Of a stretch of DNA of 64,000 nt, positions 2,064 to 63,541 are shown in pieces; the stretch's first letter is position 1; every line of letters starts with the position of its first letter. The notes beneath the pieces were generated by a model, which was not told the DNA's origin, ran no database searches, and worked only from the letters and a program-made list of their open reading frames with translations. A program made the translations under genes and the position numbers. Origin of the DNA: Alteromonas sp. M12. GTDB taxonomy: Bacteria > Pseudomonadota > Gammaproteobacteria > Enterobacterales > Alteromonadaceae. The stretch spans positions 1,054,001 through 1,118,000 of the forward strand of contig NZ_CP144164.1 of assembly GCF_037478005.1 (NCBI RefSeq), in the 5' to 3' direction.

Positions 2064-2177
2064 TCGAGCGCAAAATAAACTAGCGTTACTAACCTAAGGT
2101 TTTTAGTGTTGGTAACCTAATTACTAGAAAAGGGCACACTTGTAACAGAGCGTGCCCATTTATGTATTAAGAGTGAC

Positions 2178-3185: not shown

Positions 3186-3266
3186 ACTATAAATGTAATT
3201 AAAAATAAATATACTTAATGGTGTTATAGATTAACAATCAATAATAGCAAGATTAAAGGAACCTAT

Positions 3267-4445: not shown

Positions 4446-4538
4446 CAGTCGTCAGATTGATTACTCCAAGAAGAAGAAGTGTAGTGAAACACTCAAGTTA
4501 AGTTTTGTATTCTACTCAAATAAAAAGGAGTGTTGCGG

Positions 4539-5438: not shown

Positions 5439-5460
5439 TAATAGTGTAAACGACTAAACA

Positions 5461-5484
5461 GCCGGACTTTTGTCCGGCTTTTTT
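5461..5484 (+). terminator. Rho-independent terminator after fba
   Basis: A perfect 7-bp GC-rich stem (GCCGGAC / GTCCGGC) with a TTTT loop is followed by six T residues, 22 bases after the fba stop. It closes the tkt-epd-pgk-fba group. Confidence 0.95.
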
Positions 5485-5583
5485 GTTTTCTGCTGTTAGG
5501 TTTAACATTTTTTGATTATCACGACTAAAATATAACGGCTGACTGAGCACTGAAAAATTCCGGTTACCGATATTAGGATAATT

Positions 5584-5922
5584 ATGAAATTCGAATTGCC
5601 ATTGCCGTTGTATAAAAAGCTTACGGTAACATTCCGAGTTGAGCCCGGATGTCTAGGGCCAGAGGGCGCAGCCCACATAAAGGGGTTTTGTAAACACGCA
5701 AAAAAAATGGTGGTGGGTTTAGATTCCGATTTTATTCGTTGGGTGATTATCCCAAGGTATGATAAATCTTTGCCAGAAACCGAATATAAAACGAATGGGA
5801 AGCGTTTAAATCAGCAGCAAGCGGCATTGTATCTTAGTGCCTTTAATAAAAAACTAGACGATTTTGAAGCTCATCTTGATGAGCAATTAACCCATTTGAT
5901 TGATAGTTATTTAGGCCGTTAA
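5584..5922 (+). CDS. Conserved hypothetical protein, 112 aa
   Basis: I do not recognise the family. The 112-residue protein has no signal peptide or membrane segment. The N-terminal half is mixed beta/alpha with two cysteines (C23 in EPGCLGPEG and C36 in GFCKHAKK) and a conserved-looking WVIIPRYDKSLPE stretch. The C-terminal third is helical and charged (AALYLSAFNKKLDDFEAHLDEQ). The reading frame is well formed and the ATG follows TTAGGATAATT, so it is probably a real gene. It stands alone between the fba terminator and the convergent ppx gene. Cytoplasmic location is inferred from the absence of targeting signals. Confidence 0.75.
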   Translation: MKFELPLPLYKKLTVTFRVEPGCLGPEGAAHIKGFCKHAKKMVVGLDSDFIRWVIIPRYDKSLPETEYKTNGKRLNQQQAALYLSAFNKKLDDFEAHLDEQLTHLIDSYLGR

Positions 5923-5973
5923 GTCAACTCGCAGTGGATCTCAATGAATGCTCTATTTGTTGTTTAACAACGG

Positions 5974-7500: not shown

Positions 7501-7545
7501 TTATGACATCATTCCTTAAGGCGGCTTACATCTCGATATAGTGTA

Positions 7546-9609
7546 TTATTCTAGTGATTTTAGATAGTGATAAATTTCCACTTGAGAACGTAGTTTTTTA
7601 CGATTTCCACGCTTCACATATTTATTGGTTTGTTCCGCATCAATGATTCGTGCTTTGATGGTGTCTTTCAATTGCAGTTCCAGAATATGAATAATGCGTT
7701 TTTTTAAGTCTTCATCATAAATAGGACAACCCACTTCAATGCGATTATCCATATTTCTTCTCATCCAATCGGCCGAAGAAATAAACACTTTAGGATTTCC
7801 CGCATTTGTAAAAGACATCACTCTTGGGTGTTCTAAAAAGCGATCTACAATACTAATAATAGTGATGTTTTCACTTACTCCGGGAATATTCGGTATAAGT
7901 GAACACATGCCACGGACTATGGCTCTTACTTTGACACCAGCCTGACCGGCTCGATATAAATCGTCAATTAATTGTTGGTCAACTAGGTTATTCACTTTTA
8001 AAGTGATGCCTGATGGTAAGCCTTCATTGGCATTTTGGATTTCTTGGCGCACTAAAATCTGAATTTTGGTGCGCGCATTTAGTGGCGATACTTGCAGATG
8101 TTGAAATTTATTGCGACGGTAAGGCAATTGAATCAAATCAAATACCCAAATTGCTTCTTGAGCTAATTCTTGGTTACGGGTAAACAGGCTAAAGTCAGTA
8201 TAAATTTTAGCTGTTTTTTCATTGAAGTTACCCGTACCGAAATGAGAATAATGTACTAGCTCCCCTTTTTCTTCACGACTGACCACGCATAATTTACTAT
8301 GGATTTTGAATGAAGGAGAACCTAACACAACTCGGATCCCGGCATCGGTCATGGTTTTTGACCATTCAATGTTGGCTTCTTCATCAAAACGCGCACGCAG
8401 TTCGACCACTACGGTTACTGTTTTACCATTGTCTACGGCATCGATAAGTGAATTGACGATTCGCGATTTATTCGCTACGCGATAAATATTCAGACGGATA
8501 TGTTTGACGCTGGGGTCAAATGCCGCTTGGCGCACAAACTCGGTAAAATGTAAAAATCGATGATAGGGATAATAAAGTAAAATATCTTTATGTTTAATAG
8601 CATCAAATACCGTGTCGAAATCAGTAAATAAGTGCGTATTTATTGCTGGTAGAGGTGGATTTTCTAAATAACTTCTGCCGACATTTGGGAAACCAATAAA
8701 GTCTTTGAAGTTTCGATAGGCACCGCCCGCTATCAAACTATCAAAAGAACTGATTTTTAAACGTTTCTTGAGGTTTTTTAACATTTCTTCTGGCATATCA
8801 GCATCATAGATAACCCTTACAGGCTCAGCTATCAAACGTTGCTTCATGCTTTCAGACATTTTTTCTACGAAACTTTCATCAATCTCATCATTGATAGAAT
8901 ATTCTGAATCTCTGGTCACTTTAAATGAGTAAGCTTCCATTTCATCAAATTCAATAAAGCCTTTAAACACAATGCTTAAGCAAAGTTGAATAACGTCATC
9001 AATTAATATGATGTGTTTCTTTTTACGGCTTTTTTCAGGGGGAATTTGAATAAAACGCGACATGGCTTCGGTGGGCAACTCAATCGTTGCGTATTTAGTC
9101 GCTCGGTCTTTTTTATAAATAGCCACATATAAATAGGTGCCAAAGTCATTCAGGCGATCGACAAGGTTGACTTTTTTATGCAGTAATATAGGTGCAATAT
9201 GGCGTAATATTTTGTTTTTAAAATAGTTTGTTAACCATTCTTGTTGATACGGGGATAGTTGGTTTTTGTCTACTATGTAGATGTTGTAGCGCTTCAGTCC
9301 GGCGATAACATCATCGTAAACTTTTTCAAAGTTATCCGTTAGAACCACCACTTTGTGTTGAATTTTTTCCATCAACAACTTGGTGTTTTCTGCTGCTTGC
9401 TCGTTACCTTCTTCTAAGTGAATATAAATTAAGCGTTTTACTTCCGCCACTCTGACTCGGTAAAACTCATCCATATTGCTGGAAAAAATGCCTAAAAATC
9501 GAATTCTTTCAACGATTGGATTGTGTTTATCCGCTGCTTCTTGCAATACACGTTCATTAAAAGAAAGCCAGCTTAGTTCTTTTGGATAATAGATTTGTTC
9601 TGGATACAT
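7546..9609 (-). CDS. ppk1: Polyphosphate kinase 1
   Basis: Reversibly polymerises the gamma phosphate of ATP into polyphosphate. The 687 residues have the full PPK1 architecture: an N domain beginning YPKELSWLSFNERVLQEA, a head domain, and two PLD-like C domains. The autophosphorylated histidine is expected in FKIHSKLCVV, followed by YSHFGTGNFNEKTA. The C2 domain has FISSADWMRRNMDNRIEV. The start lies 96 bp downstream of the gcvR-like gene. A single perfect CTGTCAT half-site (9666-9672, minus strand) stands upstream, but I find no second repeat, so PhoB control is not shown. It forms an operon with ppx. Confidence 0.96.
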   Translation of the reverse strand: MYPEQIYYPKELSWLSFNERVLQEAADKHNPIVERIRFLGIFSSNMDEFYRVRVAEVKRLIYIHLEEGNEQAAENTKLLMEKIQHKVVVLTDNFEKVYDDVIAGLKRYNIYIVDKNQLSPYQQEWLTNYFKNKILRHIAPILLHKKVNLVDRLNDFGTYLYVAIYKKDRATKYATIELPTEAMSRFIQIPPEKSRKKKHIILIDDVIQLCLSIVFKGFIEFDEMEAYSFKVTRDSEYSINDEIDESFVEKMSESMKQRLIAEPVRVIYDADMPEEMLKNLKKRLKISSFDSLIAGGAYRNFKDFIGFPNVGRSYLENPPLPAINTHLFTDFDTVFDAIKHKDILLYYPYHRFLHFTEFVRQAAFDPSVKHIRLNIYRVANKSRIVNSLIDAVDNGKTVTVVVELRARFDEEANIEWSKTMTDAGIRVVLGSPSFKIHSKLCVVSREEKGELVHYSHFGTGNFNEKTAKIYTDFSLFTRNQELAQEAIWVFDLIQLPYRRNKFQHLQVSPLNARTKIQILVRQEIQNANEGLPSGITLKVNNLVDQQLIDDLYRAGQAGVKVRAIVRGMCSLIPNIPGVSENITIISIVDRFLEHPRVMSFTNAGNPKVFISSADWMRRNMDNRIEVGCPIYDEDLKKRIIHILELQLKDTIKARIIDAEQTNKYVKRGNRKKLRSQVEIYHYLKSLE

Positions 9610-9705
9610 TAGTTACCTGATTTTTCCCGAGCTTTTTCAATAGGATGGAATGTTCCATTGTTTGTATGACAGTTTTGTTAAATTCGATGATTTCAACCTA
9701 AATAA

Positions 9706-10209
9706 CTACCTTAAATCTACATCGACAATCAAATCGTTGGCAATATCTTCTAGTGCGTCGGAAAGTTCATCAAGTTGGAAACCTTCGGGGATAGCAACAA
9801 CCGCATGGGCTTTAAACAATAAACTGCCCCAATTCGGCGCGCTTTGGCAACTAGATTCAAATTTAATAATGTTTATATTAAAACGACTCAAGGTAGTTGT
9901 GAGTTCTTGCACAATACCTGGTTTGTCGTTGCCCGTAATATCAATTTCTACGATATCGGATTTGTTATTTGAGTCGTTATCAGCGCTCACCGAGTGGATA
10001 GTTAAGTTGGGATGCTTTTGCAAAAATTCGATTAGGGTGTCATGGTTTTCGACAGGAATATCAACTTCGACAAACCCAGCGAAATGACCCGCCATGTAGG
10101 AAAAGTTACTTGCTAACCAGTTACCCCCTAAGGAATAAACTTTTTGCGCAAGTGACTCTACGAGTCCAGGTTTATCTTTTCCGATTAAAGTTAATATTAT
10201 TGGTTTCAT
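9706..10209 (-). CDS. gcvR: GcvR-like protein with tandem ACT domains
   Basis: About 167 residues made of two ACT domains. The first opens MKPIILTLIGKDKPGLVESLA and the second VEIDITGNDKPGIVQELT near residue 90. Tandem ACT proteins of this size belong to the glycine cleavage repressor (GcvR) family, which in E. coli binds GcvA and mediates the glycine response. The open frame could begin at TTG 10224, but that codon lies against AGGGG, which sits 7 bases before ATG 10207-10209, so the ATG is preferred. It lies upstream of ppk on the same strand and divergent from pstC. A role in glycine regulation is family inference; no gcv genes are in the window. Confidence 0.8.
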   Translation of the reverse strand: MKPIILTLIGKDKPGLVESLAQKVYSLGGNWLASNFSYMAGHFAGFVEVDIPVENHDTLIEFLQKHPNLTIHSVSADNDSNNKSDIVEIDITGNDKPGIVQELTTTLSRFNINIIKFESSCQSAPNWGSLLFKAHAVVAIPEGFQLDELSDALEDIANDLIVDVDLR

Positions 10210-10398
10210 TGAAACACCCCTCAACTTAACTATTTTAAAGTTATACCTATCGAGTCGTGCTGGATAGATAAGATTGATTGACTAATTAGTATCATAGCCT
10301 AATCATATGATAATTCGTAAATTAATCATTGTTTTGATTTGCGTCATTATATATGCCGATTCATCAATATGAGATGAGGTGACCGAAAAGATTGTCAC

Positions 10399-10426
10399 TT
10401 GCCAGTTTGTCTATATCCATTACACT
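10399..10426 (+). promoter_or_regulatory. Candidate promoter of the pst operon
   Basis: TTGCCA (10399-10404) and TACACT (10421-10426) are separated by 16 bases, a plausible sigma70 pair. It lies inside the first codons of the longest pstC frame and so supports the internal GTG start at 10457. A TTGTCAC just upstream resembles half of a Pho box, but the second repeat is missing. Confidence 0.35.
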
Positions 10427-10456
10427 AGGCACAATTTCAAAATCAGGGTTAGTTTT

Positions 10457-12619
10457 GTGGGTCAGTCATCAATTGATGAATCATCGTCTAGCAATACCCA
10501 AACGGTGAAAGTCGCGCGTTTAAGGAAAGTAAAAAACCGTCTAGTTGCAGCAGCCATTGCAACATCAGGATGGTTAGTTTTGCTGACCCTGGGATTATTA
10601 CTCTGGCAATTGGTCATCCAAGTTTTGCCCTTGGCTCGTGATGTGAGTATTTCACCAAAATATCAGTTTGCTATCACCCCAAATGAATCAATTTTATATC
10701 TTGGCGATGTTATCAATTCGGTGCCACTTGTTACCATGGATAAAGATTGTCGGGTGAATTTTTACTCTCAATCGGCAGGTAAGTCCAATTCAAGTTTAGT
10801 AAAAAGTAAAATTATCCCTGCGCTTTGCACCGACCAAGTAAAAGTTAAAGCCTATGATGGTCAACTGTACTTGGCAATATTGAGTCATTCAGGGATATTG
10901 CGCATTGAAAAACTAAATCAAGTTGATAAACATTTATTTCCTGAGCTAGAAATGACACTGGCGGTAACCGACGTCGAACCTGTGATAAAAACGGATAAGT
11001 TTGACTTCCAACTGTCTGCAAACACGATCATGCTATCGGTGCAACAAGGTCAAATGTGGAAGGTATATAGCATTGACCGGCGCAGTAAAAATGAAATCGA
11101 TGTTGTTGAGGTGAACAACCCAGAACATCTGTTACTACTGCCGAGAATTGGACAATTTATTTATGTTGCTGATAGCAAACTTACTACACATGACATCACC
11201 TCTGGCAGGTTAAACCACATTGCTTTTGATCAAGCCATCAGCACATTGAATGTCTTTCCAAGTCAACGCTCCCTGTTCATAGGTTTGCAGGATAAAACGC
11301 TGCAAAAATGGAGTATCGTGAATGCCCAAGGGCAATTAGTCTTTCAACCCATGTATTCAATGGTTACCGAGTATCAACCGAAAAATATTCTTATTCACCA
11401 ATCTGAAAATGCAGCATTTATAACTGACCAAAAAAATCAGCTTAAGATCATTAATTATGTCACCGGAGAGCAAGTAAGCGACAGTTTCACTGAGCATATA
11501 AGTAATCAAATATTATTGAGCCAGAACCTTTTATACACAGTCACGAATAACACTTTGAATGTTTTCGAGGTGAACTCGATCTCCGCTGTGAACACGATTC
11601 AATCTTTGTGGGGAAAAAATAGTTATGAAGGTTACCCGCAAGCAGATTACGTTTGGCAAACTACGTCAGCTGCTGATTATCACGAAACCAAATTTAGTTT
11701 AGTTCCTCTGGTTATAGGTAGTTTAAAAGCGTCCTTTTTAGCGCTTTTAATTGCGGTTCCGCTAGCTGTGTGCGCTGCAATTTATACTGGATTTTTCGCG
11801 CCAGAGCGATTGCGCAATTGGATTAAACCAAGCATCGAAGTGCTCGAAGCAATACCCTCTGTGGTGTTAGGTTTCATTGCGGCTATTTGGTTAGCTCCGT
11901 TAGCCGAGCAATTTATCTTGTCATTATTATTATTTGTCTTGCTGCTGCCTCTGGTTTTATTTTTGTTTGCGCTTTTACATCATCCTTTGGTGCAACGCTT
12001 ACCCCAACGTTTTAAACAGGGATGGGAATTACCCCTTGCAAGCATTTTATTGATTGGCTTGGGCATTTTTGTGTATTCCATTACCGATGTTATGTCATTG
12101 GCAAGCGCCAATCTTCAAGGACACTGGTTGTTGCCCATAGATACACTGGAAAACATTAATAAAAATACCCTTGTAGTAGCCTTGGCGCTAGGAATAGCTA
12201 TTGTACCGAGTATTTATTCTCTGGCTGAAGATGCAATTTATGAAGTGCCAAATACCCTAAAGCAAGCTTCTTCGGCACTGGGCGCAACTCGTTTGCAAAC
12301 GCTGCGAAAAGTGGTGTTGATTTTAGCCTATCCAGGTATTTTAAGTGCCATTGCCTTAGGGCTAGGCAGAGCTTTTGGGGAAACAATGATTGTGCTAATG
12401 GTGACCGGCAATACACCAGTGGCGGATTGGAATTTATTGTCAGGCTTACGCACGCTAACTGCTAACTTAGCCATAGAAATGCCGGAAGCAGAAGTTGGTA
12501 GTAGCCATTATCAAATCCTGTTCTTAACGGGGCTTGTGCTATTTTTGTTTACGTTTGTGCTAAATACTTTTGCTGAGTTACTACGTCAGTGGCTAAGGAA
12601 AAACTATCAACATGGCTAA
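10457..12619 (+). CDS. pstC: Phosphate ABC transporter permease PstC, large form
   Basis: Inner-membrane permease of the high-affinity phosphate importer. After an N-terminal membrane segment (LVLLTLGLLLWQLVIQVL) comes a soluble region of about 370 residues with beta-propeller-like character, then the permease core with several membrane helices and the EAA-type loop ASSALGATRLQTLRKVVL. The domain insertion makes it more than twice the length of E. coli PstC; this large form is known in marine gammaproteobacteria. The frame is open from GTG 10379 (746 codons), but its first 26 codons look non-coding and overlap a possible promoter. GTG 10457, preceded by CAGGGTT, is my choice, giving about 720 residues. 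It overlaps pstA by 8 bases. No pstS is in the window. Confidence 0.88.
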   Translation: MGQSSIDESSSSNTQTVKVARLRKVKNRLVAAAIATSGWLVLLTLGLLLWQLVIQVLPLARDVSISPKYQFAITPNESILYLGDVINSVPLVTMDKDCRVNFYSQSAGKSNSSLVKSKIIPALCTDQVKVKAYDGQLYLAILSHSGILRIEKLNQVDKHLFPELEMTLAVTDVEPVIKTDKFDFQLSANTIMLSVQQGQMWKVYSIDRRSKNEIDVVEVNNPEHLLLLPRIGQFIYVADSKLTTHDITSGRLNHIAFDQAISTLNVFPSQRSLFIGLQDKTLQKWSIVNAQGQLVFQPMYSMVTEYQPKNILIHQSENAAFITDQKNQLKIINYVTGEQVSDSFTEHISNQILLSQNLLYTVTNNTLNVFEVNSISAVNTIQSLWGKNSYEGYPQADYVWQTTSAADYHETKFSLVPLVIGSLKASFLALLIAVPLAVCAAIYTGFFAPERLRNWIKPSIEVLEAIPSVVLGFIAAIWLAPLAEQFILSLLLFVLLLPLVLFLFALLHHPLVQRLPQRFKQGWELPLASILLIGLGIFVYSITDVMSLASANLQGHWLLPIDTLENINKNTLVVALALGIAIVPSIYSLAEDAIYEVPNTLKQASSALGATRLQTLRKVVLILAYPGILSAIALGLGRAFGETMIVLMVTGNTPVADWNLLSGLRTLTANLAIEMPEAEVGSSHYQILFLTGLVLFLFTFVLNTFAELLRQWLRKNYQHG

Positions 12620-52526: not shown

Positions 52527-53528
52527 TTAGATAGCGGCGGCGCTTAGCGTTGATAGACTATTTGCGGGCGTTGCAGATGCCATTGCTAATCGACCTCGCC
52601 AATGAGCTAAGGATTGTTCGCTTGCTGTTACGGTTTTAATCACATTCAACATTTGTATCGAGGCATCAGAGATACGCATACTCTTATTGGTAGTTGCTAG
52701 TACCAGACGCGTCATCTCCGGTTGTTCAATTTTTAACGTTTTGACTACCTTGCTTTCTTCTAAATGGTACATTGCTGAGGAAGGTAAAATCATTAAACCT
52801 TCACCTTGAATTACTTGCCTTAAACCTGTCATCAGTTGCCCGGAATAGGCTTTATTATGTTTTAAGGCAACGCCTGTGGTGAGTTCATAAGTGTTTATTA
52901 ATTGTCCCAGTGCGTCTTTTAAACCAGGGGTTAATAGTTCAAATTGGCTCAACTCCCAAAAATTCACTGTATCTCGGTTAAGCAATTGTTGATAATTGGC
53001 AGCACTGTCATTACTGCCCACAACAAGATACATATATTCTTCAATAAGAGGATAGGTGGTCATGAAATTCTGATCAATTTCTTGCTCATAGGTTAAAGCA
53101 ATATCGAGTTGGTTGGTTTTCAGCCATTCTTTTACAGCGTATGAGGGCCCCGTGCTGATTTCTAATTTTATATGCGGATGGAAACGATTAATTTCAGCGA
53201 TCAGCGGCATGGACAAAACGTTACCGATAGAGGGTAGCATGCCCACCCGAACTGTACCTGAGCGATTACTTATTAACTGTTGTAGTTCAATTTTGGCGTC
53301 ATTGATTGTTTTTGTGATGGTTTGAGCATGATTAACAAATATTTGCCCGGCTTGCGTTAGGGTTACTCCTCGAAAGCTACGTTCAAGCAAAGCGGCGCTC
53401 ATTTCTCTTTCCAAGTTTGCTAATTGCTGACTGATAGCTGGTTGAGCAATGTCTAATTCTCTGGCTGCTGCGGCAATACTACCTTTTTGCACGGTTATTA
53501 AAAAATACTCCAACTGTTTAGTATTCAT
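52527..53528 (-). CDS. LysR-family transcriptional regulator
   Basis: A 333-residue regulator. The winged-helix DNA-binding domain is at residues 1-62 (LEYFLITVQKGSIAAAARELDIAQPAISQQLANLE), followed by a linker helix and a periplasmic-binding-like effector domain (VRVGMLPSIGNVLSMPLIAEI). The family resembles the Nac/Cbl-CynR branch. It is divergent from the TonB-receptor gene across a 531-base gap that contains a GTATC-N5-GATAC palindrome fitting T-N11-A. It is therefore the likely regulator of the receptor/TSUP/aminotransferase genes. The effector is unknown. Confidence 0.9.
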   Translation of the reverse strand: MNTKQLEYFLITVQKGSIAAAARELDIAQPAISQQLANLEREMSAALLERSFRGVTLTQAGQIFVNHAQTITKTINDAKIELQQLISNRSGTVRVGMLPSIGNVLSMPLIAEINRFHPHIKLEISTGPSYAVKEWLKTNQLDIALTYEQEIDQNFMTTYPLIEEYMYLVVGSNDSAANYQQLLNRDTVNFWELSQFELLTPGLKDALGQLINTYELTTGVALKHNKAYSGQLMTGLRQVIQGEGLMILPSSAMYHLEESKVVKTLKIEQPEMTRLVLATTNKSMRISDASIQMLNVIKTVTASEQSLAHWRGRLAMASATPANSLSTLSAAAI

Positions 53529-54059
53529 TCAGCACATTGCTCCTAACACTATTACTCAATTGATTGAATTTCTTATTCTCCATTGCACTAATTTAGTTAC
53601 ATTCCATTTCGAAACTCATCTTTTGCACTATCTACTGTAATTGCTTGTAAATTAAGCATTTTTCATACCATTCTTATAATTATTAAAGCTTGGAATTGTA
53701 AATAATATGTTTTTTTGAACTTTTTGGAATATTTTTTTACGCACAAATGAATTCGTATCTTATTGATACTTATATGTAAATGTAGAGGCTCAATATTTTC
53801 CCTATAACCCTCAATAATCTTTTTTCTTCCGCGTCGCCACTGCTTTTCTTAGTCTCTTGTGGGTTAGTTGATACGGCTAACAGGATAAACAAAATACTCT
53901 CTTGCCTGCAGTTGGTGCTTAGTTGATCACTTTAAGGGCAAACCCTTAGGTAATAACAAGTTTAGGTATTTTTTATCAAAACAAAAATAAAAACATAAGA
54001 ACACGGACAACAAGTCACGGACGTATTACTGAGAACACATAATAATTAGGGAACACTCA
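53529..54059. other. Long intergenic region between LysR and the TonB receptor
   Basis: About 530 AT-rich bases without a convincing open frame. It should contain two divergent promoters. I see one good palindrome (53755-53769) and a short AAGGG-CAAA-CCCTT hairpin near 53935. No cobalamin or thiamine riboswitch signature was recognised, although such switches often precede TonB receptors. Confidence 0.6.
53755..53769. promoter_or_regulatory. Candidate LysR-type operator
   Basis: GTATC-TTATT-GATAC is a perfect 5-bp inverted repeat with the LysR-class T-N11-A geometry. It lies 227 bases from the lysR start and 291 from the TonB receptor start, in the divergent gap. Confidence 0.4.
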
Positions 54060-56678
54060 ATGAAATTAACCAAAATCAATACTGCCATATTAGCTGGTTT
54101 ATCTGGTTGCGCTATTTCTCTGCTGAGTGCACCTTTAGCATTTGCGCAAGAAGCCGCAGCAGAAGACGATAATCTTGAGAAAATTGCGATAGTAGGTGCT
54201 CGAGGAGCGCCAAGAACTGTGACTAGCTCTCCAGTACCAGTGGATGTATTAAGTGCAGATGACTTAAATGCAGTAGCATTTTCGGATATGAATGATGTAC
54301 TAAAAACCTTAGTGCCATCCTATTCGGTCTCTCGCCAACCTATTTCTGATGGTGGAACCTTTATCCGCCCAGCTCAATTGCGTGGTTTGCCTACCGACAA
54401 AACCTTAGTACTGGTGAATTCTAAACGACGCCACCGTGCTTCTTTAGTCTCTATTGGTGGTTCAGGTACGCAAGGGCCGGATTTGGCTACTATTCCAACT
54501 GCTGCCATTGCCAGTGTAGAGGTACTCCGTGATGGTGCTGCTGCGCAATACGGTTCTGACGCCATCGCTGGTGTAATCAATTTTCAGCTAAAAAATAACA
54601 CCGAAGGTGGGATGTTTTCAGCCGAAATAGGACAATATTTTGAAGGTGATGGCGATCAATTAGTTATCGCTGGTAACAAAGGTTTTGCTCTTGGTGATGA
54701 CGGTTTTCTAAGTATCTCTGCTGAGTACTCCGATTCAGAAGCTACTTTTAGAGGAACACAATATTGCGAATCTTGGTTCTGTGTAGACGATCAATCTGCC
54801 GAGTATATTGCCGCTGCAGAATTGCAAGGTCAAACAGTCCATGGTTCATCTCAAGTTCAACCTTGGGGACAGCCTAATTCAAGTGGCACTCGTATATTTG
54901 TTAACACAGGTTATTCACTTTCAGATGACGTTGAACTCTACGGATTCGGAAATTATTCCGAAAGTGAGGGAGACGGTGCATTCTTTTATCGTTATCCAGG
55001 TAATGGCACCATCGAAGATCTTCGTTTGGAAGACGGCTCTATTTGGAATCCTATTGAGATATTTCCCGGTGGCTTCACTCCGCGTTTCTTTGGTGATGTA
55101 ACAGACTACTCATTACTTGGCGGAATAAAGGGAATGAGCGGTGCTTTTGGCTATGATTTAAGTGCTCGATACGGTTACAACGAGATCTCCTATACGTTAA
55201 GTAATACCATCAACCCATCGATGGGGAATTTATCGCCTACGTCATTCAAACCGGGTGATTTAAGTAACAAAGAAACCCAAATTCAAGCTGACTTTACCTA
55301 TGACATGGCCGAATACATTTTAGCATTTGGCTTGAGTTATATGGATGAGTCTTATGAAATTTCTGGTGGAGAGGAAGATTCGTACTTTGCTGGCCCTTAC
55401 GCTTCTGCAGATCCTTGGGATTTTTGTACCGATGCTTACATGCCTACCGAAGCGGGTGAAGCAGTTATTACCAACGGTTCAACTTTGGATTGCGCTAACT
55501 ATACGACCAATGATGTCGATGGTGATGGCTTCGAAGATGATGGAATTGAAGGGCTGGATCCGGTTTACCGAGTAGTTGGTGTGGGTTCCAATGGTTTCCC
55601 TGGTTATTCACCTGAATTCTCGGGTAAGTATTCACGTGATTCTTATGCCGCCTACGTAGATATTTCAGGTGATATCACCGATAAACTATTTGCTCAAGGT
55701 GCGTTGCGTTATGAAGACTATTCAGATTTTGATTCAGAGGTTGTCTATAAAGTAGCTGCAATTTATCAATTTACCGATGAATTTGCAGTACGAAGTTCAT
55801 ATGGAACTGGGTTCCGTGCGCCAACTCCTGGACAACAAGGTACGACCAATGTGTCCACTCGCTTACCTAATGGATTCCCTGTCGCTACAGGTCTGTTTCC
55901 TGCCGGAGGCTCTGTCGCACAAGCACTTGGTGCCGAAGAACTTCGTCCTGAATTATCGACTAACTTTACATTGGGTTTGACCGCAGCAATTGGTGATTTC
56001 AGCTTAACTGTAGATTATTACCATATTTTATTGGAAGACCGAGTGTATGCTGTTTCCACAATGGATGTATCTACCGATCCATCGACTGGTGATGATTATG
56101 CCAATTACTTGAATCTGGCCGAAGCCGGTGTGGTTGGTGCTGAATCGATAGGTGGGGTTTTCTTCTTCCAGAATGCCTTTGATACGGTAACTGAAGGCCT
56201 TGATATTGTCGGTACTTACGCTTTGAAATCAGATTATGGCGAAACTATGTTTACCGCTTCGATCAATTATAACTCTCAAGAGTTTGATTCAGATCCTAGT
56301 GAGTTCTTAAACGCAGAAGACCAGTTTGATTTTGAAAACGGTGTACCTGAAATGCGCGGTGTGTTCTCAATTAATCATAGCTATGAAGATTGGATGTTAA
56401 CGACTCGTTTTAGTTATTACGGTGAGTATGAAAACGCTAACGATAGCTCTGTAGATACTGACATTCAAACCTTCGGTTCAGAATTAATGGTTGATTTGGA
56501 AGGTACCTATCATATCAATGATATGTATACCGTTTCGGTAGGCGTTCGTAACATATTCGATAACTACCCGGATGTCGCGACTATGGGAGATTCGTGTTGT
56601 GGCCGAGTATACCGTTCAGATTCAGTTGTTGATTGGCAAGGTGGTTATTACTACGCCAAATTTATCGCTAATTTCTAA
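54060..56678 (+). CDS. TonB-dependent outer-membrane receptor
   Basis: An 872-residue receptor. A signal peptide (to about residue 29, ending PLAFAQ) is followed by a TonB-box-like EKIAIVGARG. The plug domain is at about 50-170, with VEVLRDGAAAQYGSDAIAGVINFQLK. A 22-strand barrel ends in the aromatic YYYAKFIANF. One extracellular-type loop holds DVDGDGFEDDG at residues 485-495, which resembles a calcium-binding loop, and there are several cysteines in loops. It takes up an unknown ligand using proton-motive energy. It lies upstream of the TSUP and aminotransferase genes, so the ligand may be an amino compound or a peptide; that is inference. Confidence 0.94.
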   Translation: MKLTKINTAILAGLSGCAISLLSAPLAFAQEAAAEDDNLEKIAIVGARGAPRTVTSSPVPVDVLSADDLNAVAFSDMNDVLKTLVPSYSVSRQPISDGGTFIRPAQLRGLPTDKTLVLVNSKRRHRASLVSIGGSGTQGPDLATIPTAAIASVEVLRDGAAAQYGSDAIAGVINFQLKNNTEGGMFSAEIGQYFEGDGDQLVIAGNKGFALGDDGFLSISAEYSDSEATFRGTQYCESWFCVDDQSAEYIAAAELQGQTVHGSSQVQPWGQPNSSGTRIFVNTGYSLSDDVELYGFGNYSESEGDGAFFYRYPGNGTIEDLRLEDGSIWNPIEIFPGGFTPRFFGDVTDYSLLGGIKGMSGAFGYDLSARYGYNEISYTLSNTINPSMGNLSPTSFKPGDLSNKETQIQADFTYDMAEYILAFGLSYMDESYEISGGEEDSYFAGPYASADPWDFCTDAYMPTEAGEAVITNGSTLDCANYTTNDVDGDGFEDDGIEGLDPVYRVVGVGSNGFPGYSPEFSGKYSRDSYAAYVDISGDITDKLFAQGALRYEDYSDFDSEVVYKVAAIYQFTDEFAVRSSYGTGFRAPTPGQQGTTNVSTRLPNGFPVATGLFPAGGSVAQALGAEELRPELSTNFTLGLTAAIGDFSLTVDYYHILLEDRVYAVSTMDVSTDPSTGDDYANYLNLAEAGVVGAESIGGVFFFQNAFDTVTEGLDIVGTYALKSDYGETMFTASINYNSQEFDSDPSEFLNAEDQFDFENGVPEMRGVFSINHSYEDWMLTTRFSYYGEYENANDSSVDTDIQTFGSELMVDLEGTYHINDMYTVSVGVRNIFDNYPDVATMGDSCCGRVYRSDSVVDWQGGYYYAKFIANF

Positions 56679-56809
56679 ATCGTCGAAGGTTTAGAGCATA
56701 TCAGAAATGTGGCAGATGGGGCGTAAGCCCCCTGCTTGTTTCAAGAGATTATTATTTTATTAAGTTGAGTACCTATTTTGATGAAAACTTTTAGTGGAGC
56801 GATGTGGTG

Positions 56810-57634
56810 ATGGAGATTGAATTACTCTGGTTCGTTCTAACATTGTGTTGTGCCGGCGCCGTCGCTGGAATTACCGCCGGTTTATTTGGAAATGGTGGCG
56901 GATTTGTAGTGGTCCCCGCTTTATTAGCGGTTTTCCCGTTTTTTACTCCCAATTCTGAAGAGTTAGTCAAGGTCGCTATCGGTACGTCGTTAGCTTCTAT
57001 TGTTGTCTCTAGCGCTCGTTCAGTGATGGCACACCGTCGAAGAGGCGCCGTTGATTTTGAAGTGCTTAAGTCATGGTCAATATGGATTGTATTGGGTGTG
57101 CTAGGAGGTTTAGCTATTGCTAACCACACAAGCAGCGTTGGATTAACCATCGTTTTCGCTGCGGGTGTTTTGTTGTATTCAATTTATTTTCTGTTCCCTG
57201 ATTTTGTAGTTCGTCCAGGTGTTTCGTTTTCCATGCCTTCAGGTATGGGCAAAGCCACTCTGGCATTCGTGTTGGGAGGATTTTCAGCGCTTTTAGGAAT
57301 TGGTGGTGGAACACCTACTGTTATCACTATGGTGATGTGTAAACGCACTATTCAACAAGCAGTGGCGACCGCTGCAGGTGTGGGATGTTTAATTGGGTTA
57401 CCTGGGGCCATCGGATTTTTATTTATGGAAAACACAAGCCCTGAAAGTATGCCAATTGGAACCGTAGGTTATATCAATTTACCTGCGCTTATTGCCATCA
57501 GTGTCGGTTCTATTCTAACCGCACCATTTGGCGCTTCAATGGCCCATAGTTTTAGTGAGAAAAAGCTTAAACGTCTGTTTGGTATTTATTTAGTGATTGT
57601 ATCAACAGCCATGTTTATCAAAGTTTTGTCGTAG
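56810..57634 (+). CDS. TauE/SafE (TSUP) family permease
   Basis: A 274-residue inner-membrane protein with about eight hydrophobic helices. Both halves carry the family's glycine-rich motif: GITAGLFGNGGGFVVVPAL near residue 20 and GFSALLGIGGGTPTVITMV near 160. TSUP proteins move sulfite, sulfoacetate, 2-oxo acids or other organic anions. GTG codons at 56804 and 56807 and ATG 56810 are all possible starts after GGAG (56796-56799). It lies between the receptor and the first Tat aminotransferase (29 bases downstream), so it may handle the substrate or product of that enzyme. This is inference. Confidence 0.88.
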   Translation: MEIELLWFVLTLCCAGAVAGITAGLFGNGGGFVVVPALLAVFPFFTPNSEELVKVAIGTSLASIVVSSARSVMAHRRRGAVDFEVLKSWSIWIVLGVLGGLAIANHTSSVGLTIVFAAGVLLYSIYFLFPDFVVRPGVSFSMPSGMGKATLAFVLGGFSALLGIGGGTPTVITMVMCKRTIQQAVATAAGVGCLIGLPGAIGFLFMENTSPESMPIGTVGYINLPALIAISVGSILTAPFGASMAHSFSEKKLKRLFGIYLVIVSTAMFIKVLS

Positions 57635-57663
57635 ACGCGTATTAAGAAAAAAGGAAAACAATA

Positions 57664-58839
57664 ATGACTTATAATCCATCTAGACGCTTATTTTTAGGAG
57701 GCAGTATTGCTGCTTCTGCCGCCGGAGCTTCTGGTTTAATTGTGCCTGCTGGTTTGGCATCTGCTGCCACAAGTCCTGCACCAAAAGTGAGTTACGGACC
57801 TGCCGCTGGTATTGCCAAGTTGAATGCTAACGAAAATCCCTATGGCCCTAGCCCTGAAGCTCTGAAAGCTATTTCTCAAGCGAGTAGTCAAGGGGGGGCA
57901 TATTACGCCTACAATGCCGGCATGTATTTACGTGACATGATTGCCGAAAATTACAATTTGAAACCAGGTAATATTTCGATTACTGCTGGGTCATCCTTGA
58001 TTCTGGCCTTCGCCGCTTTGGCAGCAACCACAAAAGGGGTTATTTTGGGGCCAGATTTATTTTGGGACACAACCTCTAAAGCGCCAATCAGCCAAGGTGG
58101 TCCTGATATTCGTCGCGTTGCAAATACAGCTGACTTGGAGATTGACCTAGATGCCCTTTACGATGCTATCGATGATAACGTCGCTATGGTACATGTATGT
58201 AATCCCAATAACCCCACTGGGCGAATTCTTGATCCTATGAAACTCAAAGAGTTTTGTATTAAAGCATCTAAGAAAACCTTGGTGTTAGTTGATGAAGCCT
58301 ATAATGAACTCATTGAAGATGGTCCTAAACATTCGATGATTCCACTTATTAACCAAGGCCACAATATTATTGTCGCCCGTACTTTTTCTAAAATTTACGG
58401 ACTTGCAGGTATGCGCGTTGGTTACATGTTAGGCTCAGAAGAGAACATTGAATTTATCAATAGATATGGATTGGGTGGCTACTCTATCAATCAGGCTGGT
58501 TTAGCCGCAGCCATTGCCAGTTATCATGATGAAGGCTTCAAAACATTTTCCAGAGATAAAGTGATGGAAGCTAAAGGTATTATCCAGTCAGCGGTAAAAG
58601 CCAATGGTCTAACAGCTTTACCCTCAAGTACAAACTTCGTATTTGTTAACTTGGGTGAAAATGGCGATGCGAATGCATTTCGCAAAGCGATGGAAAAACA
58701 GAACGTGTTAATTCGAGGTCAATACCGTACCTATAAGCCTTGGTCGCGAGTCAGCACTGGCATTATCAAAGACGTACAAATGTATGCTGATGCTATGCCT
58801 AAAGCATTAGATGAAATGTATAAAATGATGAAATCTTAA
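57664..58839 (+). CDS. Tat-exported HisC-like aminotransferase
   Basis: A 391-residue fold-type I PLP aminotransferase resembling histidinol-phosphate aminotransferase. Residues 6-13 are SRRLFLGG, a twin-arginine signal, followed by an Ala/Gly-rich hydrophobic stretch and a likely cleavage near ASAA (32-35). The catalytic core is intact: NPNNPTG at 180-186, Asp210 in VDEAYNE, the PLP lysine Lys243 in RTFSKIYG, and the substrate-carboxylate arginine Arg362 in PWSRVSTG. Export with folded PLP cofactor by the Tat pathway would put transamination in the periplasm. ATG follows AAAAGGAAAACAATA. Substrate unknown; no his genes are near. Confidence 0.9.
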   Translation: MTYNPSRRLFLGGSIAASAAGASGLIVPAGLASAATSPAPKVSYGPAAGIAKLNANENPYGPSPEALKAISQASSQGGAYYAYNAGMYLRDMIAENYNLKPGNISITAGSSLILAFAALAATTKGVILGPDLFWDTTSKAPISQGGPDIRRVANTADLEIDLDALYDAIDDNVAMVHVCNPNNPTGRILDPMKLKEFCIKASKKTLVLVDEAYNELIEDGPKHSMIPLINQGHNIIVARTFSKIYGLAGMRVGYMLGSEENIEFINRYGLGGYSINQAGLAAAIASYHDEGFKTFSRDKVMEAKGIIQSAVKANGLTALPSSTNFVFVNLGENGDANAFRKAMEKQNVLIRGQYRTYKPWSRVSTGIIKDVQMYADAMPKALDEMYKMMKS

Positions 58840-58887
58840 TCTCAGATAAACTGTTTTCAGTTAATCAAAAAGTTGCGGGTTTAAAGT

Positions 58888-58926
58888 AACCCCATTATTT
58901 GGATAACACCAATAATGGGGTTTTTT
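58888..58926. terminator. Terminator between the two aminotransferase genes
   Basis: A 12-bp stem AACCCCATTATT / AATAATGGGGTT with an 11-base loop and a T-run, 48 bases after the first aminotransferase. The A-rich opposite side could also serve the convergent gene. Confidence 0.93.
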
Positions 58927-59083
58927 AATGTGTTAATGCGGCTAAACATTATAGCTAGCGTTAGATGAGCATTGCTCTAGCCGACTGAAAACTCGTTGGG
59001 CTAGAGCTTGAAACGTCACCGAATTAATATGAGTTAAGACTCTTAATGTTTTACGGTGTTGAGTGTCTGTGTTCAAACTTTGA

Positions 59084-60268
59084 TTATGCTAAAACTAGTT
59101 TCAAGGCGTCAACACAAGCATCTGTCTCTGCAGGTGTTCCGATACTGATACGAGACCAAGTGTCATAACCAGGCCATGTTCTACCAACCACTTTTATACC
59201 GGCAGCCTTCATTTTTTCTGAAAACTGATCATGGGGCATACCTGTATCCATATAGATGAAATTCCCTTGGGGATTTTTAGCATATGGACGTCCTAGTTCT
59301 TGTGCGGCAGCTGTTAGCTTAGCGCGTTCTGTTTGAACACGTTTTCGCATGGTATTTAAATTTGTGTGGTCATCCATACTCGCCATACCGGCAACAAGTC
59401 CGAGATAGTTCACGCCGCCCATTCTTAACATGCGGCCAATTACTTTAGCTTGTTCCGCAGGCATGATGGCGTAACCTAAACGTTGACCGGCCATCGCATG
59501 TATTTTTGAGAATGTGCGACAAATAACCACGTTGTATCCGTCTGCTGCTAACTTTGATTGAACGTTTGCTGGATATGCATCTGACATTTCAATGTAGGCT
59601 TCATCGATGAAAACCTGAGCCTTTTGTGACACACGTTTTGCGAATTCGGTAAGCTTAACAGAATCTACGACACACCCAGTTGGGTTATTTGGGTTACAGA
59701 TATAAACCGCTGTGGTGTCATCAGTGACTGCTGCTTCAATTGCGTCTAAATCGAAATTCATATCAGAGTCTAACGGCACGTAAGTAACCTCTGCGCCCAT
59801 AAACTCTGCGCCACGAGGCACACCTTCATATGTCGCCATGGAAGTAACTAACTTGTTCCCGTTTTTGGTGATCCAGTCTGCGTATCCAAATAGGATAGGG
59901 GATGAGCCATTGGTAACAACGATCTGTTCTTCGGATACACCCTCTTGGGCTGCAATCTTCTTTTTCAGGACGTCGACTGTCGCATCAGCGTATCTGCCTA
60001 GATTGAACAACTCAGATTGCATGGCTTCCACTGCTTTAGCTGAAGGTCCAAATGCGTTTTCATTTGAGGATAATCTAATTAGGCCATCTCTCACATTAGG
60101 CGTTGCGGATGGAAAGTGATCCGTTTTCATGCCTGCTGCATTTAGTTCTTTTACGCTTGAATCTACACACGCAGAAAGTGCTACCGCTCCCGTACCTAAT
60201 CCAACGGATTTTAGCCATTTGCGGCGTGAAGAATCAATTATATTATTGTTTGTTATACCTTGTTTCAT
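59084..60268 (-). CDS. Tat-exported lipoprotein-type HisC-like aminotransferase
   Basis: A 394-residue paralogue of the first aminotransferase. SRRKWLKSVG at residues 14-23 is a twin-arginine motif, and ALSAC with Cys34 is a good lipobox, so the mature protein is probably a membrane-anchored lipoprotein. The catalytic set is complete: NPNNPTG at about 192-198, Asp222 in IDEAYIE, Lys255 in RTFSKIHA, and the arginine in WSRISIG. It is convergent with the first copy and has its own upstream region. Two differently anchored periplasmic transaminases side by side are unusual. The true substrate is unknown; the HisC likeness is fold-level only. Confidence 0.9.
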   Translation of the reverse strand: MKQGITNNNIIDSSRRKWLKSVGLGTGAVALSACVDSSVKELNAAGMKTDHFPSATPNVRDGLIRLSSNENAFGPSAKAVEAMQSELFNLGRYADATVDVLKKKIAAQEGVSEEQIVVTNGSSPILFGYADWITKNGNKLVTSMATYEGVPRGAEFMGAEVTYVPLDSDMNFDLDAIEAAVTDDTTAVYICNPNNPTGCVVDSVKLTEFAKRVSQKAQVFIDEAYIEMSDAYPANVQSKLAADGYNVVICRTFSKIHAMAGQRLGYAIMPAEQAKVIGRMLRMGGVNYLGLVAGMASMDDHTNLNTMRKRVQTERAKLTAAAQELGRPYAKNPQGNFIYMDTGMPHDQFSEKMKAAGIKVVGRTWPGYDTWSRISIGTPAETDACVDALKLVLA

Positions 60269-60686: not shown

Positions 60687-61637
60687 CTAACTAATACTTG
60701 CTTGTCGACGTCGGCGTTTATATTTGTTGAGGGTATTGATTTGACCTGCGGCCATACTAAACGATGTTTCAAAACTTGAGAATAAACATTGCCAGGATTT
60801 TTCATCCAAACCAAGTCGTTGTAAAATGGGGGATTCATCAATATCTATTGAGCCACTTTTGTTGGGATGCAGGCTACGTCCTGACAGGTCGACTAATTTT
60901 AGATAGTCGATGAGATTAAATGTCAGTCCAGGTGGTTGAGGTTGTGTAGGATTGCCCACAAAAGGCATTAAAGTTGTTGGCTGTTTTCCTTTTTTGAAAT
61001 CGCGTATGCGTCGTTTAATACTCGTGTGCTCTGAAGTTTCAGGAGTACTGGCTAACTTGGCACGGATAGGATTTAAGTCCACATAAACCATACACGCCGC
61101 TACTGCGTGCTCATCTAATAAAGCTTGAGATTTAAAGCGTCCTTCCCAGAAATGGCCAGTGCATTGGTCTTCGTGGTTGGCTTTTCGCGCAATGGGCTCG
61201 TTAAGCTCTCGCATAAACCAACTGATATCGGTCAAGCGCTGTCGATAGATGGATAACGTAGCGTGTAAAGTGGTCCGCTGCGCATCGGTGAGCAGCGGCG
61301 AATCGGTACTCATGAACTTTTGGGTTAACAATGTTCCCTTGTGGAGTTTATGCCATCTTGAACACACTTGTTTATCAGTCCAGTCATTGGCTTTTTCTAC
61401 ATTCACATGCAATACCACATGGGAATGGTTGCTCATAATCGCAAAGGCACAGACTTCAATAGCAAAGACAGTGGACAAAAACAGTAACCTATCTTCAACC
61501 CATTGACGGCGATGCTCGAAACTTTTTCCTGTGAATTTATCTTCCCCGCACAAATATGCTCGGCGTACACAGCGAGAAACGCAGTGGTAGTAGGGGGTAT
61601 CTGTCAAACAGATTTGACGCTTCCTTGCTAAGGGCAT
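60687..61637 (-). CDS. REP-associated tyrosine (Y1/HUH) transposase
   Basis: A 316-residue protein with an IS200/TnpA-REP-like Y1 domain in its first ~200 residues. YYHCVSRCVRRAYLCGE matches the family opening, the metal-binding HUH motif is in MSNHSHVVLH, and the helix with the catalytic tyrosine is probably DEHAVAACMVYVDLNPIRA. The C-terminal ~110 residues are an extension common in Alteromonadales copies. Such single-copy domesticated transposases usually act on short repeats. Direct repeats with a shared core lie on both sides of this gene. It appears full length. Confidence 0.9.
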   Translation of the reverse strand: MPLARKRQICLTDTPYYHCVSRCVRRAYLCGEDKFTGKSFEHRRQWVEDRLLFLSTVFAIEVCAFAIMSNHSHVVLHVNVEKANDWTDKQVCSRWHKLHKGTLLTQKFMSTDSPLLTDAQRTTLHATLSIYRQRLTDISWFMRELNEPIARKANHEDQCTGHFWEGRFKSQALLDEHAVAACMVYVDLNPIRAKLASTPETSEHTSIKRRIRDFKKGKQPTTLMPFVGNPTQPQPPGLTFNLIDYLKLVDLSGRSLHPNKSGSIDIDESPILQRLGLDEKSWQCLFSSFETSFSMAAGQINTLNKYKRRRRQASIS

Positions 61638-62016: not shown

Positions 62017-63483
62017 TCAAACTGTATTTATAGCAAAAGTGCTTAACTTAACTTTTTCAATTTTATTTTCTTCACTATCGTGGGCAATACAAAGTTCGCT
62101 AAACGGTGCAGTAGGGAAGGTCAGCATAGTAATACATTGCCGAGCACCATTGAAAAATAGTTCGAACGAACAAGTGTCTGCGTAAATTTCAATTTCAACA
62201 AGTTGGTGCTGCAGAACATCAATAGGCATTTCAACGATTGAATCAAATCCTTTTTCAGCAAAGCCACTGTGAGTTCTATCCGCCAAAATTCGTTTGTTTG
62301 CAAAATCGAGTGTCAAAACAAAGGTTTCTTTATTCGCACTTTGCCATTGCAGAACGGTTTTACGGCTCTGTGAGCTAAGAGTAAAGGATAGCTTGTATGC
62401 TTCGGGTATGTTTAACGGCTGTTGCCTAAGCACTTCGATTGTACTCAATGAATTTTCAGCATTGAATTCAATCGCGGGCGGGGTCGCGAGTTGGTAACCG
62501 GATTGGTTTTTCACTAAGCTGATTTTTCGTGGCAAGGTCATCGCGCCTCGCCACGTATTATCGGGCGTGTCTCGCGCATAATCCCAGTTACTCATCCAAG
62601 CGATGTAAGTCCGACTTTTCAATATCTCTGGGGTATTGTCCCAAGTAATACCGGCATAACAGTCAGTGCCATAGTCTAACCAATGGGTTGGGCTATTTGT
62701 AGGTAGAGGGTCTTGAGGGGTAAATTCAACACCATCGAAGTCGCCAATGAAATATTGTGTGGCTGAGCCACCATTGGGGCCACCAGGATTAATGCTAATT
62801 AATAAAACCCAACGCTCGATTCCAGTTTCGCTACAAATTAATGGAAACAGATCCGGGCATTCCCATACGCCACCATGAGCTCCGTGGTTATGTCCAAATT
62901 CGGAGAGTTTGTGCCAACTTTTAAGATCGTTGGACTGATAAAAATAGACACATTGACCCGCAACCACGGCTTTTACCCAGTATTTTTTTTCTGCGTACCA
63001 GACAACTTTTGGATCTCTAAAATCTTTTAAGCCAGGGTTTGGAATAACCGGATTATGCGCATACTTAGTGAAACTTTTTCCGCCATCAACTGAATATGCA
63101 ATGCTTTGAACTTGCACTTCATTTTCTGAATGATGTGTAAATGTCGCGATTACCGCAGGATAATCCGAGCTGGCAAAACCTGCGGTATTATTTATATCCA
63201 CTACAGCGCCACCAGAAAAAATATAACCTAAGCCTTCTGGCTCGGCATGAAGCGCAATGGGTTGATGTTGCCAATGAATCAAATCCTCTGAAGTCGCGTA
63301 GCCCCAGTGCATATTCCCCCAAACCACGTCATCAGGATTGAGTTGGAAAAATAAATGGTATTTACCGTCCAAATAAAATAATCCGTTAGGATCGTTGATC
63401 CAAAAACCCTGTTTAAAAAAGTGATAATGAGGCGTCCAAGTACGATTCGTACTAGGACGGTTTTGGTTATCTAACTGCTGCAT
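62017..63483 (-). CDS. GH32 beta-fructosidase (sucrose/fructan hydrolase)
   Basis: A 488-residue glycoside hydrolase family 32 enzyme acting on sucrose, sucrose-6-phosphate or fructans. The three catalytic signatures are present: the nucleophile Asp31 in FWINDPNG, the transition-state Asp157 in FRDPKV, and the acid/base Glu208 in WECPDLF. A beta-sandwich C-terminal domain follows. There is no signal peptide with start ATG 63483, so the enzyme is probably cytoplasmic and works on imported sugar. The frame is open to 63540, but GAGGT before 63483 and the family N-terminus favour the shorter form. It is divergent from a LacI-type regulator. Confidence 0.93.
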   Translation of the reverse strand: MQQLDNQNRPSTNRTWTPHYHFFKQGFWINDPNGLFYLDGKYHLFFQLNPDDVVWGNMHWGYATSEDLIHWQHQPIALHAEPEGLGYIFSGGAVVDINNTAGFASSDYPAVIATFTHHSENEVQVQSIAYSVDGGKSFTKYAHNPVIPNPGLKDFRDPKVVWYAEKKYWVKAVVAGQCVYFYQSNDLKSWHKLSEFGHNHGAHGGVWECPDLFPLICSETGIERWVLLISINPGGPNGGSATQYFIGDFDGVEFTPQDPLPTNSPTHWLDYGTDCYAGITWDNTPEILKSRTYIAWMSNWDYARDTPDNTWRGAMTLPRKISLVKNQSGYQLATPPAIEFNAENSLSTIEVLRQQPLNIPEAYKLSFTLSSQSRKTVLQWQSANKETFVLTLDFANKRILADRTHSGFAEKGFDSIVEMPIDVLQHQLVEIEIYADTCSFELFFNGARQCITMLTFPTAPFSELCIAHDSEENKIEKVKLSTFAINTV

Positions 63484-63521
63484 ATGCACCTCTAGAAAAA
63501 TTAATAAAAAAGACTTGATAA

Positions 63522-63541
63522 AATGTCTATCGATGGTCATT
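63522..63541. promoter_or_regulatory. Candidate LacI-family operator
   Basis: AATGTCTATCGATGGTCATT is a 20-bp imperfect palindrome centred on ATCGAT, 39 bases upstream of the GH32 start in the gap shared with the lacI-type gene. A central CG is typical of LacI-family operators. Confidence 0.45.

Follow-up and report, generated by a model that had tools for sequence, protein, structure and literature searches.

We analyzed a 64,000-nucleotide stretch of DNA from Alteromonas sp. M12 (the window; positions 1054001-1118000 of the 5.01-Mb single-contig genome, here called G000) and focused on a group of genes that appears to specify the uptake and deamination of an amino compound outside the cytoplasm. 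Based on Pfam matches and the positions of open reading frames, the group consists of a LysR-type regulator, a TonB-dependent outer-membrane receptor (TBDT), a permease of the TSUP (TauE/SafE) family and two aminotransferases, AT1 and AT2 (Table 1). In relatives, TSUP and AT1 are replaced, beside the same receptor, by a relative of L-amino acid oxidase (LAAO) that uses flavin adenine dinucleotide (FAD) and has a twin-arginine translocation (Tat) type start, a cytochrome c and, in most of the loci read, a RidA-like protein that is apparently exported. An earlier interpretation of the same DNA, made from the letters without database searches (the sequence-only reading), had placed five genes at these positions, and we confirmed that observation.

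Table 1. Features of the locus, in positions of the window
Feature	Position	Strand	Basis and remarks
LysR-type regulator	52527..53528	-	Pfam HTH_1 and LysR_substrate; divergent from TBDT
Divergent regulatory region with putative LysR site	53529..54059	.	Alignment of 12 intergenic regions; function inferred
TBDT, TonB-dependent outer-membrane receptor	54060..56678	+	Pfam Plug and TonB_dep_Rec_b-barrel
TSUP (TauE/SafE) inner-membrane anion permease	56804..57634	+	PF01925, 144.3 bits
AT1, Tat-type aminotransferase dependent on pyridoxal phosphate (PLP), HisC-like fold, predicted soluble periplasmic	57664..58839	+	PF00155
AT2, second Tat-type HisC-like aminotransferase, lipobox LSAC	59084..60268	-	PF00155; convergent with AT1

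AT1 starts 29 bp downstream from TSUP on the same strand, with the sequence AGGA 8 bp 5' of its start. The divergent LysR and TBDT genes are separated by 531 bp, and in this gap CTCAATA occurs twice as a direct repeat (53789 and 53810, spacing 21 bp). The two copies are largely kept in the aligned Alteromonad loci and possibly constitute a LysR site. The gap between TBDT and TSUP (56679-56803) has, by eye, a short G+C-rich hairpin-like stretch, a possible attenuator of read-through. A scan of the window with Rfam gave no match at the gathering score.

Both aminotransferases have a twin-arginine region at the N-terminus, and AT2 additionally has a lipobox. In an alignment of AT1 relatives, the two arginines, the PLP lysine (K243) and D210, Y213, R251 and R362 were invariant in all 29 rows. 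In addition, a scan of genome contigs for AT1 gave 479 related stretches, of which we retained the best 80; RRx followed by a hydrophobic residue was at the right position in 80/80 of these loci. The twin-arginine signals described in the sequence-only reading are borne out by these results, as is the complete PLP site of AT1. AT1 combines a twin-arginine motif and a complete PLP site in one protein, as is characteristic of Tat-exported fold-type-I PLP enzymes of the PtaA kind, and is predicted to be exported to the periplasm by Tat.

Neither enzyme belongs to the named families that it most resembles. AT1 and AT2 scored 194.9 and 229.3 bits with the HisC model TIGR01141 (cut-off 276.55 bits), 211.0 and 221.6 bits with the PRK09105 model NF006580 (cut-off 444 bits; still the top NCBIfam match of AT1), and 166.4 and 198.1 bits with the PtaA model NF051461 (cut-off 500 bits). 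Because they fall below the cut-offs for HisC, PtaA and PRK09105, we class AT1 and AT2 as HisC-like and not HisC. No PtaA orthologue above the PtaA cut-off was found in 143 genomes of the class. An AlphaFold2 model of AT1 had a mean predicted local distance difference test score of 88.4, and its fold matches were HisC-like aminotransferases. The top fold match was PDB 3ly1 (a putative histidinol-phosphate aminotransferase from Erwinia carotovora), which, judged by sequence, is also the solved structure nearest to both AT1 and AT2; it differs in being 32% identical to AT1 and in having a name that is only putative. It is conceivable, but improbable, that AT1 is instead an oxygen-using PLP oxidase, a lyase, a racemase or a decarboxylase with a HisC-like fold, in which case no amino acceptor would be needed in the periplasm. 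Fold alone cannot tell the reaction, but the nearest matches of AT1 are annotated as aminotransferases. We also considered that the aminotransferase might be OvoB, the PLP lyase that is the partner of OvoA in ovothiol synthesis. This idea was dropped; G000 has no match to TIGR04344 (OvoA), in a search that gave matches in 3/14 control genomes and one above the cut-off. Five stretches from the family Alteromonadaceae (L174, L175, L176, L177 and L180) encode yet another kind of HisC-like aminotransferase, which begins with RR or KR and has other neighbours.

TSUP and AT1 are nearly always paired. Among the 69 loci in which AT1 was at least 50% identical and 900 bases upstream were available, 65 have TSUP directly 5' of AT1. 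Three of the four exceptions (L082, L087 and L088) are alike. In the fourth, L090, TSUP lies between two AT1 copies: the tandem AT1-TSUP-AT1 (7158-10610) looks like a duplication of the aminotransferase around a single permease. PF01925 covers residues 15-270 of TSUP with a score well above the threshold of 32.6 bits, placing it in this permease family. When we searched 60 relatives (own genome included) for orthologues, TSUP at 68% identity or more was confined to the five genomes with AT1.

Of 47 long loci, 32 had a TBDT relative near AT1, and at least three arrangements were seen. In most Alteromonadaceae loci the receptor gene separates LysR from TSUP; in Microbulbifer and several others it is convergent and 3' of AT1. 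LysR was near AT1 in 22 of the 47 loci, chiefly in Alteromonadaceae. AT2 was beside AT1 in two of the 80 loci (L027 and L028) and likewise in genome G003, which is the only one of the 60 relatives besides our own to have an AT2 orthologue (95%); a locus titled Aliiglaciecola lipolytica E3 (L029) has no AT2 at that place. In a class-wide search of 369 genomes, AT1 (E <= 1e-70) and AT2 (E <= 1e-55) were each present in at least two, with our own genome counted in both and up to five candidates per genome scored. AT1 itself is 100% identical in Aliiglaciecola lipolytica D2R05. Because AT2 is beside AT1 in so few loci, we place it outside the conserved set, which is LysR, TBDT, TSUP and AT1; as a neighbour AT2 is local to its lineage, and a few close strains have it as an additional enzyme. 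The sequence-only reading had treated the two aminotransferases as one system, and this part of it does not hold. The conserved co-occurrence that it suggested checking is found for TSUP, which accompanies AT1 throughout, for TBDT, which does so widely, and for LysR mainly in Alteromonadaceae.

In some Alteromonas-type loci, MetJ-like (by clustering, five loci) and MetF-like (ten loci) genes are 3' of AT1, which raised the idea of a methionine regulon. We rejected this idea; these genes are absent from the AT1 loci of other clades, so their proximity is probably just positional. The open reading frame beside AT2 (60687-61637) has no Pfam match. It resembles a transposase associated with repetitive extragenic palindromes, and it may explain the arrival of AT2. 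A glycoside hydrolase family 32 gene (by Pfam) is at 62017-63540, and we saw no link between it and the locus.

TSUP-AT1 was found on contigs titled Alteromonas, Marisediminitalea, Paraglaciecola, Microbulbifer, Halieaceae and SAR86. A gene that clusters with tatC is directly 5' of TSUP-AT1 in six of seven SAR86-titled loci (L073, L078 and L083-L086) and in L099 (the Pfam TatC match was checked on L086 only), as if the Tat translocon and its client shared one operon. More distant loci have related arrangements. L106, from Algoriphagus (Bacteroidota), contains at 547-10306 a sigma factor, FecR, a SusC-like TBDT, SusD, a Tat-type aminotransferase and a weak membrane-transport match; this is a similar layout built from other parts. 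In L104 and L105, in which AT1 relatives lack TSUP, a RidA-like gene is directly 3' of the aminotransferase; in L105 its start is signal-like. On a Zymomonas plasmid, a TBDT gene is divergent from a Tat-type HisC-like gene.

We found that TBDT is accompanied by either AT1 or the LAAO relative. The same 196 genomes of the family were searched three times, for TBDT (E <= 1e-150, with up to four candidates per genome scored) and for AT1 and LAAO (E <= 1e-90). TBDT was present in 27 genomes, AT1 in 16 and LAAO in 21. At these cut-offs, 13 genomes had TBDT and AT1, 14 had TBDT and LAAO, none had both AT1 and LAAO, and none had TBDT with neither. That is, all 27 genomes with TBDT were among the 37 with AT1 or LAAO. 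The hypergeometric probability of this outcome is 3e-25 if the genomes are assumed to be independent, a value that is too small because of shared descent. By coordinates, LAAO was less than 1.5 kb from TBDT in 14/14 genomes and AT1 was less than 1.6 kb away in 12/13, the exception being genome G493. Two genera (g3 and g5) each contained both kinds of locus, in separate genomes. In addition, six of the 60 relatives had LAAO, and all six were without an AT1 orthologue. Our own genome had no oxidase homologue at E <= 1e-30 and no match in the LAAO search at E <= 1e-90, and the window had no tblastn match to the oxidase, the cytochrome c or RidA at E <= 1e-6.

We read the gene order in 30 fetched regions, 15 of the oxidase type (L225-L239) and 15 of the AT type (one of these being the G493 region with TBDT and without AT1). 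In 11 of the 15 oxidase loci, the order was LysR, oxidase, cytochrome c, RidA, TBDT, with LysR set apart from the rest. Three others had the order TBDT, oxidase, cytochrome c, RidA, and in two of these the TBDT was just 35% identical. All 15 oxidases had a twin-arginine motif, and all 15 cytochromes had at least two CxxCH motifs. None of the 15 oxidase loci had a TSUP match, and TSUP adjoined AT1 in 14/14 AT1 loci of this family set. The top solved relative of the oxidase was the Rhodococcus opacus L-amino acid oxidase 2jae (236 bits). The motif G[PA]ARxP was kept in all 15 oxidases; in snake-venom LAAO, this arginine binds the alpha-carboxylate. Seven further oxidase stretches included two (L146 and L147) with LysR and a TBDT 59-60% identical and two (L148 and L149) with a TBDT 35-37% identical.

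The replacement appears to have occurred in place. In genus g5, the AT-type locus L247 is flanked on either side by the same genes as the oxidase-type loci L225, L227 and L146, whose TBDTs are 72-73% identical to that of L247. (The L247 proteins are identical to those of L049, from Paraglaciecola arctica.) We made trees of TBDT and LysR by a quick method and without bootstrap. The TBDT tree had 54 rows, and in it the AT-type receptors of g5 fell within a branch of 12 oxidase-type rows, four AT-type rows and one with both (Shimodaira-Hasegawa-like approximate likelihood ratio test [SH-aLRT] 100; 99 for an inner branch of ten rows). At least three changes between the AT and oxidase labels are required in this tree. 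Two rows were labelled as having neither cassette: L241 has no AT1 beside the receptor, and L072 does in fact have AT1. The LysR tree covered 34 rows, from 20 AT-type loci, 13 LAAO-type loci and one with both. In this tree, which had a warning for long branches, the LysRs of the same AT-type loci grouped with those of the oxidase type (SH-aLRT 100). Judged from these sequences, two unrelated enzyme sets have been exchanged in place next to one receptor.

In the gap between LysR and the oxidase gene in L225-L235, several loci have an inverted repeat like CACAATAnTATTGTG 5' of the oxidase gene. AT-type loci have the CTCAATA direct repeats in the gap instead. A gene for a DASS-type permease is near both versions in genus g5. 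L047 also has a DASS-type permease gene, with a second, partial copy directly before TSUP (2378-3805 and 6497-6883).

Several observations weigh against a single system with two interchangeable enzyme sets. Ten of the 37 genomes with AT1 or LAAO had no TBDT orthologue at E <= 1e-150, one of the 15 oxidase loci (L237) and three of the further oxidase stretches (L150, L151 and L152) had no TBDT, and there was no RidA match in the cluster of L147 (genome G021). AT1 occurs without adjacent TSUP in L082, L087 and L088 and in relatives 37-43% identical (L100-L106), and G022 has a TSUP 48% identical without an AT1 orthologue. The cassettes are not strictly exclusive, since two loci outside the 196-genome sample, L098 (Paraglaciecola marina) and L054 (Parahaliea maris), contain both; the oxidase cassette there encodes an FAD amine oxidase of the Tat type together with a cytochrome c and a RidA-like protein whose start is signal-like. 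The repeats upstream differ between the versions, so shared control by LysR is only suggested. The two exchanged sets could also put one cargo to different uses. Finally, a TBDT relative was absent near AT1 in 15/47 long loci, SAR86-titled loci included, and in G493 TBDT and AT1 are on separate contigs, as would be expected if TSUP-AT1 were an operon with its own role and TBDT a chance companion on the chromosome. But all of the TBDT genomes had AT1 or LAAO, and one of these adjoined TBDT in 26/27 by coordinates and in several gene orders, making mere neighbourhood very unlikely.

Based on the gene make-up, the export motifs, the conserved linkage and the cassette exchange, all read from the DNA, we infer that the locus is probably one of two interchangeable versions of an extracytoplasmic system for deaminating amino acids. 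TBDT would bring an alpha-amino acid, or a molecule carrying one, into the periplasm. There AT1, having bound PLP on folding and passed through Tat, would strip the alpha-amino group to yield a 2-oxo acid. The direction of this reaction and the equivalence of the two enzymes are suggested by the exchange: AT1 replaces the oxidase set beside the same receptor, and the simplest reading is that it too deaminates the cargo of the receptor, by transamination. That is, AT1 most likely does the job of the oxidase, removing the alpha-amino group outside the cytoplasm. TSUP would move a small organic anion across the inner membrane, and the likeliest cargo is an oxo-acid used or made in the transamination cycle. 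A transaminase needs an amino acceptor and an oxidase does not, and TSUP is found with the transaminase version only (except in the two dual loci); TSUP is thus probably a carrier for the oxo-acid partner of transamination. Alternatively, TSUP could import the reaction product, as could the DASS-type permease of genus g5. The divergent LysR would control the set.

The sequence-only reading had proposed capture of an amino compound at the outer membrane, its deamination outside the cytoplasm and movement of the resulting oxo-acid or sulfonate. That interpretation stands in part. Capture, deamination and movement of an oxo-acid across the inner membrane are supported, with the cassette exchange as new evidence, and the pairing of the aminotransferases and the sulfonate are not. 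We found no support for a sulfonate cargo, in work that included no search aimed at sulfonate genes; TSUP is a broad label, and no TSUP accompanies the LAAO version.

Both enzyme sets have precedents. PtaA (periplasmic transaminase A) of Pseudomonas is a Tat-exported PLP transaminase that acts on pyoverdine, and it thus works outside the cytoplasm, as we propose for AT1; the available part of a review says only that there has to be some way of regenerating PLP in the periplasm (PMC6206403). It differs from AT1 in that its substrate is a siderophore side chain and its gene is usually outside the pyoverdine cluster, and that part of the review mentions no TSUP partner (PMC6206403). AT1 might nevertheless be a tailoring enzyme like PtaA, acting on the amino-acid end of a siderophore or other carrier handled by TBDT and not in feeding. 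The presence of PtaA also in species without pyoverdine, according to the same source (PMC6206403), would fit this alternative, as would the scores of AT1 and AT2 with the PtaA model. TBDT, which has only partial relatives in the PDB by sequence (TSUP has none), matches receptors for siderophores, colicins and vitamin B12 there, mostly over the plug. In contrast, AT1 and AT2 are far below the PtaA cut-off, no siderophore synthesis gene was noticed among the listed neighbours, most of which were not profile-annotated, and the set exchanged with TSUP-AT1, a relative of amino-acid oxidase with RidA, is catabolic. We therefore regard a tailoring role as unlikely.

The same three kinds of protein as in the cassette found beside TBDT orthologues are encoded by lao-cccA-ridA of Gluconacetobacter diazotrophicus. 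Disruption of lao nearly abolished the conversion of tryptophan to indolic compounds; given tryptophan as precursor, lao mutants formed little indole-3-pyruvate, and indole-3-acetic acid was not produced (PMC5053998). The paper cites Niehaus 2015 for hydrolysis by RidA of the imines that such oxidases release, and its accessible text does not mention TonB or describe an exchange with a transaminase (PMC5053998). Unlike that system, the window has no such oxidase. Chlamydomonas LAO1, an extracellular L-amino acid oxidase that acts on L-tryptophan outside the cell, is similar in its place of action but is a eukaryotic oxidase, unlike the bacterial LAAO relative (PMC10805672).

We did not find a description of this gene set in open-licence papers in PubMed Central.

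Transamination is normally treated as a cytoplasmic process. Here, an unrelated enzyme seems to do the same job in relatives, at the gene for the same receptor, and this suggests a form of nutrient processing about which little is known. The transaminase is nearly always paired with one inner-membrane carrier and can be replaced by an acceptor-free oxidase that lacks this carrier, so the question of how the acceptor is supplied is directly testable. More tentatively, marine gammaproteobacteria might run a full transamination cycle in the periplasm, with TSUP shuttling the 2-oxo-acid acceptor or product across the inner membrane so that AT1 could deaminate amino acids brought in by TBDT, and transamination and respiratory oxidation (LAAO-cytochrome c-RidA) might be exchangeable modules of one nutrient-capture locus. 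Because TSUP-AT1 is found on contigs of Alteromonas, Microbulbifer, Halieaceae and SAR86, this system may matter for the use of dissolved amino compounds by ocean bacteria.

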